From the NCBI GenBank assembly GCA_961205875.1, contig OY540812.1, forward strand, positions 24,685,098 to 24,749,097: a DNA stretch of 64,000 bases. Reading direction: 5' to 3'. Shown here piece after piece: positions 1,735 to 31,393 of this stretch. Position numbers and translations under genes: made by a program. This stretch comes from Sialis fuliginosa. Lineage: Eukaryota; Arthropoda; Insecta; Megaloptera; Sialidae. How positions within the stretch are numbered: position 1 is the stretch's first letter; each line of letters opens with the position of its first letter. The notes beneath the pieces were generated by a model, which did not search any database, was not told the DNA's origin, and was given only the letters and a program-made list of their open reading frames with translations.

Positions 1735-2475
1735 TTAAATACGGAACATTTATACGAATATTATAAAAGCGAAAATAACTGTTTGTATGTCTGCTGTTTG
1801 TTACCTTTTCACGGCAAAACCGCAGAACCGAACTTGAAAAAAAAGAGAGATAGCTTGCATTCTGAGGAACGGCATAGGCTACTTTGTATACCGGAAAACT
1901 TATTAGAAGAAAAATATACCTATATAAATTCCACGCGGACGAAGTCGGGAAAAATATTTTTTTGGTCGGATTTACTTGAAACAAAATAAATACTCTACAA
2001 TAAAAATAATGAAACACGTATTTCAGCATTTCCCAAAATTCAACCCCTAAGGGGCTGCAAGAGGGTGGAAAAGTTTGTATGAGAAAAAAAATTTGTTTGT
2101 ATTCACTTGAATGTTTGGCACAAAATAATATTGAATTTAAATAAAAATGTCGACATTAAACCCCTAATAGCGTAAGAGGAGGGCGAGGGTGGGTTTTTAT
2201 CTGCATAGCTGCTTTAGTTATAAAGGTAAATTCGGGCAAAATAGTCTATTAAAATAAAAATTACTAAATTCAACCCCTAATGGCGTGGGTAGACAGGGGG
2301 TGGGTTTTTGCAATTTTTAATTAAGATCCGAGATGTTTATGATTTTGTATAGGTAACGAATAAAAATAAAAAAATAAAATAAAAATTTTATATTTCATCC
2401 CGTCTTAAAATATTATTTGTGCTGTCAACATAAAAAAATTATACAACGCGGGCGGGTTCACTAGTATTACAATTG
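1735..2475 (-). mobile_element. Non-LTR retrotransposon (RTE-like) 3'-region fragments
   Basis: Read on the minus strand, the block contains GACTTCGTCCGCGTGGAATT, TACAAAGTAGCCTATG, GGTAACAAACAGC and ends in TTTTATAATATTCGTATAAA. This is a layout seen in many arthropod RTE-clade 3' ends and derived short elements. Three GGGGTTGA blocks at 2040, 2160 and 2280 on the same strand are repeated 3' UTR-like units. No reverse transcriptase ORF. The assignment is by remembered motif, so moderate. Confidence 0.5.
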
Positions 2476-4703
2476 TTGTAAATTTAAAATTCGTTTCAAA
2501 ACCATTAATTATAAGTTTTGTCTTCGAATTTGGTCATAAATACCAAAATACAACTTTTTTGTCACGCAAAATGTTTTTTTTTTGTTCAATCTTAAAATTT
2601 GCAAATAACTATTATAATAATTGACTATTATTTTACTATCAGTTTTAATATTAATACATTATTTTAAAATTATATTAATTATGTGTTACGTATTTATTGA
2701 AATAATAATATAACAATATAAGAAATATATTGTAAAAGTAGGTACCTCAATGAACGTAATAATTAATTATTTGGTTTAATTAAGTATAAGATACGTATTT
2801 TAACATAAGAATAGAAGTTGGTTATCTTTTAAACATTCCAAAACGTCACTAAATATTCAATCATTTCAAAACAATAATAATATTTATAATAATAAATAAA
2901 TTCTGAAAAAAAAAACAAGCGAGAAAATCTTTTAAATAAAAAATAGGGGTCGAGTAATGATGAAGACCATGTATAAAAGTGTTCTACTATTTGACGAAAC
3001 CAACCCATACTCCATACCATACAAACTACTTTTATTATCAAAACTAATGTTCGCAGCATTGCGTGCCCGGCTGCCTCGTAAAAAATCGAACGAGCGAGTC
3101 TTACGCGGCTTTGATGCGCAAAAAGAGGCAACGTTGCACGACACGTACAACGGTAACTAGCACGCTACGCGATGCATGTGGTCATAGACGGGAGAACCTC
3201 TCTCTCGCTCCCATACACAATAGTACCTACTCAAGTATAATGAAAACCTGCAAACAAATGCCTTACATTATTACTACCAAAAATTGTTGTTTTACATATG
3301 TTTTAGCAATTGTTTCAATTTTATTTTATATTGTTATAGCAATATATTTATATATTAACTTGTTTAACATCATTGTATAACATTGTACATTTTTATAAAG
3401 AGAATATCCCTAGGTTATCTGGATTTACGATTCACTATTAATATACAGTTATTATCTGGATTCTAGGAGCCGACGCGACGTTCTATCGATTTGACAACGT
3501 CATTATTAATATTATTATTCTAACTTAAGTACTAGCAAAATTAGTAATCATTGCTCAATTTTTGTGTATTTTTTTACGAAACATATTTTTTTATACTTTA
3601 TGAAAGAAAAAAATATGCAGTCAATTGTCTAAAAACTACCAAATTATTTACATAGAATGCTTCATAACTTCATATTAACGTAACGATATACATATTTGTT
3701 TTTTTAACTGTACGTTCTGTATATTTTTACATATTTGCGTAAGAAATAAATTCATCTTTAAAATTATTATAATAGTTAGAGTAAGGCAAAGCAGGTGAAA
3801 TATCGGACAAAAATAAATAATATTTATTTTATTATTACATTGAATATGTCATTTATTGTTATTTCAAATAACAAAAATTCAATTTAAATTCATAGTTCAC
3901 ATAGCAAAAATGTTACCATTGAAGTTGATTGTTCAAGTTGAGCAAAATATATAATATTATACTTTCCTCAGTTCCTATTCCAAAGTGCGAAAGAGAAAGA
4001 TCTAACAATAAGAGTGGAACAGACATAGCAATTTCAAATGGACTTTGAGGGCAGATTGCTGCTTCAGTTGTTCGGCGCATGCGCATAGCGGTGCACTATA
4101 CGGCACACGAGTTGATGGATTCAGTAAGATTGTGAATGTGAGATCAGCTGTACTTCTTGTACAAATAGCGAATATAAACATTTATAAAATATTGTAGTAT
4201 TTTTTTTATTATATTATTTATAAATAATTTATATTTCTTCTAACATGTTTTGTTGTTAGCATATTGCACAAATATGTATATTTTACAACAATTTTTGTTT
4301 TGTTTGCTTTATAATTAGATCAATGCAATTACGAAAAACATTTGCATTAATTCTAAAAGTAAAATAAAATTTTCTGTTGATGCAGATTTATTCATGAGGT
4401 AATAAAGGACATTAAAAATTGTGCATATATACATTGTTTAAAGGATAAAAATGCCTCAGGATTTTTTAATTAGATTACAAAATTCTCTAAAAAAGTCAGC
4501 GAATCCAATTTCTAAAAATCGGTAAAAAATAGATTTCGATCTTTAAAATGTGCGTTTTTTTACTTTATTATTTTACCATAATTAAAGAGCTTTGGATACT
4601 GCTAAATTTTTCTCTGCTTATTTTGAATTTTGATCCCTTAATTATTTTGGTGAATGTATATATTATCGATATTTTATGTATGAAGTATATTTTATATATC
4701 ATA
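2476..4703. other. Non-coding DNA with two base-balanced pockets
   Basis: AT-rich except 2990-3240 (CpG-containing, with GAGAGAGAGG on the minus strand resembling GAGA-factor sites) and 4040-4150 (NRF-1 palindrome). The short ORFs over 2829-3380 overlap on both strands without family resemblance. Confidence 0.4.
4075..4084. promoter_or_regulatory. NRF-1 / Ewg-type palindrome GCGCATGCGC
   Basis: GCGCATGCGC sits in a base-balanced pocket (4040-4150) in otherwise AT-rich DNA. This is the core NRF-1/erect wing site typical of promoters of housekeeping genes. No ORF begins nearby on either strand, so a distal first exon or enhancer is possible, as is chance. Confidence 0.3.
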
Positions 4704-26159: not shown

Positions 26160-26608
26160 CTGAAACAGAAATTTAAAAGAGATTCTTAGAAGTTAACGTA
26201 TAATGCCCTTCGCTACGTAGGATATTTTGAAAAAAAAACTTTTTCACGAAGAGATTACAGCTTACGTCAATATGAAATAGTACTTAATACGTATTATCAA
26301 GCAAGGAATGTTGAAGTGAGAATGTTAGTGAGAATGGTTATGGAACCCTATAAAAGTGTTCGCATGACGATTTATAAAAAAAAGTTATATCTACATGCTA
26401 CAGTGTTCATTGCAATTTTCTTTGAAAGTACTAATTGAAAGCTACATTCTGGATTTTTTCAACTTTTTTGCTTTAATATAGTTTAGAGGAGGAGAACACT
26501 CAAAGCAAATACAATTAAAATCAAAAGGTCCTAACAAAATGTTGTTTATTAAAGGTAAAGATTAGGTGAAAGAAACTAGTAAATGTAATATTTATATATT
26601 TATTAAAC

Positions 26609-26634
26609 GTTTCGGCTTATTAGGCCTTCTTCAG
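26609..26634 (-). ncRNA. Hammerhead ribozyme-like core, third locus
   Basis: Minus strand: CTGAAGA (26634-26628), then a stem formed by GGC and GCC around CTAATAA, then GAAAC (26613-26609) and GTTT. It fits CUGANGA/stem II/GAAA with a 3-4 bp stem II. Phrases of this type are common in arthropod Penelope-like retroelements. Flanks are AT-rich with no ORF. Confidence 0.45.
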
Positions 26635-30772: not shown

Positions 30773-30874
30773 CCATAATTTTGGTCGACAAAAATAATTT
30801 TTGTTGACCGAAATTATGGCTAACAAGCTGATGCGAGACTTTAATTATTAAAGTCTCCATCAGCTTATTAGCCA
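30773..30874. repeat. Two adjacent hairpins
   Basis: Hairpin 1: CCATAATTTTGGTCGACAAA against TTTGTTGACCGAAATTATGG (30773-30819). Hairpin 2: TGGCTAACAAGCTGATG against CATCAGCTTATTAGCCA with inner AGACTTTAAT/ATTAAAGTCT (30817-30874). They share three bases. No ORF. Confidence 0.7.
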
Positions 30875-31033
30875 TCCCTACTACATGAATTACCCTATTT
30901 TAATTTCAATCTATAAAAATAAGTTAAAATGAAGTACATCCAGTAAGTGTTTATAGATTTCTAATAAAATTTTACAAATAACATCGACTTAAACTAAAAA
31001 TATACATCTTAACCATAATAAACGATGTCACTC

Positions 31034-31069
31034 GACACGTGTTTCGAGTTCACAAGAAGTCCTCATCAG
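31034..31069 (-). ncRNA. Hammerhead ribozyme-like motif, left (opposed) copy
   Basis: On the minus strand: CTGATGAG (31069-31062), stem GACTTC/GAACTC with one C-C mismatch, then GAAAC (31045-31041), ACGTGTC and GAGTGAC. Same layout as the right copy but with one weakened stem II pair. Confidence 0.6.
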
Positions 31070-31105
31070 GAGCCTAACAGTTCTCAGTCTGGAACTGATA
31101 GGCTC

Positions 31106-31141
31106 CTGATGAGGACTTCTTGTGAAGTCGAAACACGTGTC
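31106..31141 (+). ncRNA. Hammerhead ribozyme-like motif, right copy
   Basis: CTGATGAG, then a perfect stem II GACTTC/GAAGTC closed by TTGT, then GAAAC and ACGTGTC. The core nucleotides of a hammerhead are all present. GAAACACGTGTC gives a self-complementary ACACGTGT that could form stem III between two copies, and ends in GTC, the usual cleavage triplet. The sequence match is strong; catalysis is inference. Confidence 0.65.
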
Positions 31142-31393
31142 AAGTGACTTTGTTTATTGTGATTAAAGTGTATAAAATTTTTAGTTTAAGTGACTAAGAA
31201 ACCACAGTTTCTCCGTTTTTTTGGAACGAAGAACCAAACCTTACAAGTTCAGGTTCGTTTCATGGTTTGAAACTTGTATGCAGTACTCGTCCCTGAAAAT
31301 GCTATTATTGAAAATATAAAACTAATGAAATAAAATTAACGATGAAAGATTAATAAACAATCATATTATCGTTCACATATTATTGTTGTGTAT

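Follow-up and report, generated by a model that had tools for sequence, protein, structure and literature searches.

Penelope/Poseidon-type Penelope-like elements (PLEs) are characterized by inverted, head-to-head pLTRs, palindromic joints, a reverse transcriptase (RT) reading frame, an optional tail of ~30-40 nt at one end, short target duplications and a hammerhead in the pLTR (PMC3846280, PMC11167929). The inverted pLTRs, the tail and the palindromes are described in PMC3846280, and the meaning of the tail is given in PMC11167929. The minimal type I PLE hammerheads (Cervera & de la Pena 2014; Lunse et al. 2017, both as cited in PMC7761336) have a minimal core and a very short stem III, and a dimer has been proposed for them. 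A third related system, the metazoan non-LTR retrozymes, carries a type I motif in AT-rich tandem units of 150-450 bp (PMC7229834). The mode of PLE integration and the role of the hammerhead are called open in PMC11167929 and PMC7761336. The many genomic copies described here hint at how these elements insert.

The window, a stretch of 64,000 nucleotides from Sialis fuliginosa, contains a palindrome that is a decayed, non-coding copy of the end of a Penelope-like retroelement (Table 1). Its arms (31001-31083 and 31092-31174) are 89% complementary and are separated by an 8-nt spacer, and the outer arms (30987-31001 and 31177-31191) are 100% complementary. The palindrome and the opposed hammerhead motif in each arm are thus present as the first-pass annotation described them. 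The TCAGT at the turnaround corresponds to what PMC3625201 calls the 'arthropod initiator'. No target duplication was found for the window copy; the longest word common to both flanks is 3 nt and the 3' flank is diverged. Two more short hairpins, at 30773-30880, precede the palindrome by about 100 bp.

Table 1. Features of the palindromic insertion in the window
Feature	Position	Strand	Remarks
Whole PLE-derived insertion (inverted arm, turnaround, sense arm, tail)	30987..31226	+	Boundaries from comparison with other copies; the window copy is L009
Inverted pLTR-like arm, terminus ACTTAAACT, without tail	30987..31091	-	
Hammerhead-like motif, stem II with a single mismatch, first stem I pair G-C	31034..31069	-	Predicted cut between 31034 and 31033
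TCAGT at the turnaround, possible initiator	31084..31088	+	Most frequent 5' end zone in the arms of other copies
Sense pLTR-like arm, terminus AGTTTAAGT	31084..31191	+	BLAST match extends through the tail to 31220
Hammerhead-like motif, perfect 6-bp stem II, A·C at first stem I pair	31106..31141	+	Predicted cut between 31141 and 31142
Stem II GACTTC/GAAGTC, loop TTGT	31114..31129	+	Read from the sequence
Self-complementary ACACGTGT, candidate dimer stem III	31133..31140	+	In a family copy Rfam aligns the corresponding bases as stem III
Tail	31192..31226	+	Matched at no more than 5 errors and by alignment; final ~10 nt diverged from other copies

Each strand carries one sense motif. The plus-strand motif consists of CTGATGA, G, GACTTC, TTGT, GAAGTC, GAAAC and ACGTGTC, in that order, and the minus-strand motif is identical to it except for GAACTC, which produces the single mismatch in stem II. 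The conserved core of type I hammerheads (CUGANGA ... GAAA ... NUH) is complete in both arms, so that a minimal hammerhead-like core is present twice. These points, including the perfect right and imperfect left stem II, had been noted at first pass. Two further details had not. In both motifs one extra nucleotide separates A9 of the core from the 6-bp stem II, and the right motif has an A after the cut where most of 40 aligned copies have a G. The first stem I pair of the right motif is therefore A·C, whereas the left motif retains G-C. The A·C beside the cut and the left stem II mismatch are marks of decay. The extra nucleotide distinguishes these motifs from the minimal type I PLE hammerheads, as far as these can be judged from the citations in PMC7761336; as a precedent, PMC6155905 cites work on a viroid hammerhead with an additional core nucleotide. 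A second hammerhead-like motif, of a different type, is found on the minus strand of the window at 26607-26634 (CTGAAGAAGGCCTAATAAGCCGAAACGT). It has stem II GGC/GCC and again an extra base after the core.

A covariance-model hit, whose absence the first-pass annotation had named as a refutation, was not obtained in the window at the curated gathering threshold of any Rfam family. In a lenient Rfam search the plus-strand motif (match at 31103-31148) scored 14.2 bits with Hammerhead_1 against a threshold of 34, with an E value of 7.1. An undecayed copy of the family also reaches just 17.7 bits on the Rfam hammerhead model (threshold 34), and we therefore read the low score as that of a short PLE variant of the hammerhead. 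A search of the whole genome with Hammerhead_1 gave no match with E of 1 or less among the 73 scored of 31,351 first-look candidates, a result that says little.

The motif is abundant in the genome (392 Mb in 20 contigs). The 36-base motif, with up to 3 mismatches allowed, has 941 and 950 matches on the two strands (1,891 in all), compared to none on either strand for the reversed control, and is thus not a chance occurrence. A wider pattern, CTGAWGAWG-N8..28-CGAAAC, gave 1,531 and 1,444 matches against 5 and 7 for its control. When the palindrome was used as a query, all 40 scored candidates out of 1,548 first-look candidates matched (80 rows, both strands). Stem II has at least 3 bp in 89 of the first 100 listed matches to the wider pattern, which itself forces the first pair. 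Compensatory change in stem II, proposed as a check at first pass, was borne out at the second pair and not at the third. Among 52 distinct motifs the second pair is formed in 49 (T-A in 33, A-T in 14, G-C and T-G in one each), compared to a mean of 29 and a maximum of 38 in 1000 shuffles. The third pair is formed in 43 and does not exceed the shuffles (42.3). Stem II therefore appears to change compensatorily between the hammerhead families of this genome at the one testable pair, which is support rather than proof because related sequences are not independent.

Upstream sequence retained by some of the copies was followed through the genome (41 rows from 40 scored of 284 candidates) and led to three loci, L108-L110. 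In L109 a frame of 462 codons (1784-3169) matches the RT profile RVT_1 with an E value of 1.2e-12, and the same hammerhead is found on the same strand at 1694-1729, downstream of the frame and about 50 nt from its end. L110 likewise has an RVT_1 match (5.8e-12) with the hammerhead pLTR downstream. Two L109 frames score 17.9 and 18.9 bits with the GIY-YIG profile, compared to a Pfam cut-off of 22.6, and two L110 frames have no match to it. A full-length element was not found among the loci examined; the Protein Data Bank contained no relative by sequence, and no phage match was found. The Penelope-like origin suggested at first pass is borne out by the RT frame adjoining the same end, the tail, the target duplications, the inverted arms and the compensatory differences in stem II, and the sequence evidence supports the assignment of the family to the PLEs. 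Coding copies are rare beside the roughly 1,900 copies of the motif, since an RT segment of 461 bp yields 19 genomic matches, of which 3 reach 95% identity or more (all 18 first-look candidates for this segment were scored). L075-L081 hold other PLE-like frames, the longest of 642 codons, with GIY-YIG matches that exceed the cut-off. Hammerhead-like words beside other GIY-YIG matches were read by eye, and some of them, e.g. at L077, may not be hammerheads.

The family differs from the Penelope/Poseidon-type elements in that palindromes without an RT dominate in this genome. Furthermore, in the copies seen the hammerhead follows the reading frame and belongs to the 3' pLTR, and the frame starting at its ATG has just 12 codons. 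The anatomy was established from 40 copies picked by similarity and from 59 C1 loci derived from 100 exact matches of the 36-mer listed. An inverted arm is present in 34 of the 59 loci by the script rule, or in 36 if two loci in which it extends little beyond the tail are counted. The first-pass annotation regarded the compact inverted arrangement without an RT as unusual; with such arms in 34 of 59 loci and 19 matches to the RT segment it is common here, and inverted hammerhead pairs of this kind are ordinary, having been described for PLEs in PMC3846280. Among the first 100 matches to the wider pattern, neighbors less than 400 bp apart are oriented head to head in 10 cases, directly in 2 and tail to tail in none. 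Close pairs chosen by eye from the 36-mer list include 8 head-to-head and 3 direct ones, the latter all from one array.

The tail, about 35 nt long, is optional and one-sided. It is found at one end in 39 of the 59 C1 loci, at neither end in 20 and at both ends in none. The two sets together contain 78 head-to-head pairs, 7 of which were dropped because one end was undefined. Of the remaining 71 copies, 67 have exactly one tail and 4 have none, although two of these four (L041 and L064) appear by eye to have worn tails. If the ends were independent, about 16 copies would be expected to have both tails, compared to none observed. The passages of PMC3846280 and PMC11167929 consulted hold no count of tails at both ends, and no priority is claimed. 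A target duplication of at least 7 bp flanks 57 of the 71 copies, compared to 2% with shuffled flanks, and it measures 9-12 bp in 50 of the 57. The joints at the turnaround differ between copies and often contain microhomology. Thus the palindrome is not inherited as one unit.

The ends of the arms were measured on the L108 copy, in which position 0 is the first C of CTGATGAG and the predicted cut lies between 35 and 36; BLAST ends are good to a few bases. The 59 loci contain 96 arms. Their 3' ends fall at two sites in 82 cases (44 at 80-88 and 38 at 117). Of the 5' ends, 46 are located at -24 to -16, where the zone around -21 reads TCAGTCTGG, another 11 lie beyond -30, and 3 lie at 34-38, in a set that was chosen for an intact motif. 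Joints between one intact arm and a second arm truncated close to the cut were sought with a genome-wide pattern; there are 58, all of them listed, and none in the control. The weighted counts of truncated ends at 36, 37 and 38 are 4.3, 4.3 and 3.3 against about 2 per position, and three joints are truncated exactly at 36 without microhomology. The zone at 24-26 is, however, equally high, and in both zones there is TC microhomology with the partner arm. The 58 joints thus give no clear signal of cDNA ends piling up at the ribozyme cut, in agreement with the finding in PMC11167929 that insertion in vitro needs no cleavage.

We consider it fairly probable that the palindrome is produced by two cDNAs, primed at both sides of the target, which begin at two internal start sites, extend as far as the 5' end of the RNA and are joined. 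The transcript would start near the TCAGT of the turnaround, a guess based on the cDNA ends, and would carry the hammerhead motif and, flanking the tail, two neighboring internal sites at which reverse transcription starts (AGTTTAAGT and CCAGTA). Each strand of the cut target would prime one cDNA, one per start site, and both cDNAs would be extended through the uncut ribozyme to the 5' end of the RNA. The two cDNAs would then be joined head to head, often by microhomology. The product would be a palindrome with a hammerhead on each strand, a tail at one end only and a target duplication of 9-12 bp. For a lizard PLE studied in vitro, cleavage and extension are seen on both strands of the target, and synthesis begins at two adjacent internal sites, one at each side of the tail (PMC11167929). 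No difference in start sites between the strands is reported in vitro (PMC11167929), and the one-tail regularity consequently needs an asymmetry at each insertion. Such an asymmetry may be built in, a proposal to which we give slightly less than even weight: the two target-end cDNAs would always use different start sites, leaving one tail; ordinary transcripts that begin a short way upstream of the ribozyme would yield solo-pLTR palindromes by default; and each of these palindromes may in turn become a new bidirectional source.

The palindrome could alternatively form by self-priming on an antisense template, in which a single cDNA folds back and copies itself and the hairpin is then inserted. 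This was proposed for rotifer PLE palindromes at inverted junctions and is preferred in PMC3846280, and local filler and repeated snippets at some joints are in its favor. With folding back, however, the two outer ends should share one boundary, and the ends differ in 67 of the 71 copies, so that self-priming appears unlikely here. A route in which the ribozyme is obligatory, with the RNA cut at the hammerhead, perhaps circularized, and reverse transcribed as in retrozymes, is less likely still. It would account for the motif-bearing C1 array L049, described below, and for the slightly raised counts of truncated arms at 36-38, including the three joints at exactly 36. Against it are the equal height of the 24-26 zone, the microhomology in both zones, the small number of arms ending at 34-38 compared to those ending at -24 to -16, and the insertion in vitro of a lizard PLE with a dead ribozyme (PMC11167929).

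Two other explanations concern the nature of the hairpin rather than its insertion. Its near-perfect pairing would suit a source of microRNA or siRNA as its main role, and the best matches of the lenient Rfam search are sub-threshold microRNA families. None of these reaches the gathering score, a long inverted repeat can be expected to give such matches, and the retroelement anatomy already explains the hairpin; we thus regard this role as very improbable. A fold-back DNA transposon (MITE) with hammerhead-like words arising by chance would be short, palindromic and present in high copy number with precise outer ends, all of which is observed. The duplications of variable length, the one-sided tail, the varying joints, the 5' truncation and the RT frame beside the same end speak so strongly against a MITE, and the empty reversed control against chance, that both were set aside as having a negligible likelihood.

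In the full palindrome an open core with stem II is enforced at a predicted cost of about 46 kcal/mol, compared to about 2 kcal/mol in a transcript starting at the turnaround and 6.5 kcal/mol in a family copy, in folds that leave out dimers, tertiary contacts and stem III. The predicted stability of the turnaround transcript is not unusual relative to shuffles (z = -1.1). Unless transcription starts at the turnaround, the ribozyme within the palindrome probably stays silent, and cleavage by the worn window copy is doubtful. A young family with ~1,900 motif copies provides statistics on insertion, and the one-tail regularity, the fixed start and stop zones and the lack of a clear pile-up at the cut site yield predictions for the in vitro PLE system.

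Tandem arrangements are also found in this genome. Unlike the retrozymes, the window copy is a palindrome and not a tandem, but one tandem elsewhere, L049, resembles them. Four 176-bp units (1660-2366; C1:39236159-39236865), each with a hammerhead of the window family, lie inside one insertion. This insertion also includes an inverted arm, and its target duplication, as read by eye, is TTATTGCTTA. Another abundant repeat accounts for about 95 bp of every unit, giving a single chimera with the pLTR. L049 looks as though a PLE end had given rise to a retrozyme-type array. At L111 (C10:3223931-3253562) five matches to the 3' segment of the PLE are spaced by ~7.37 kb and are near-identical across 3.2-kb loci; this is a large tandem that holds a PLE fragment.
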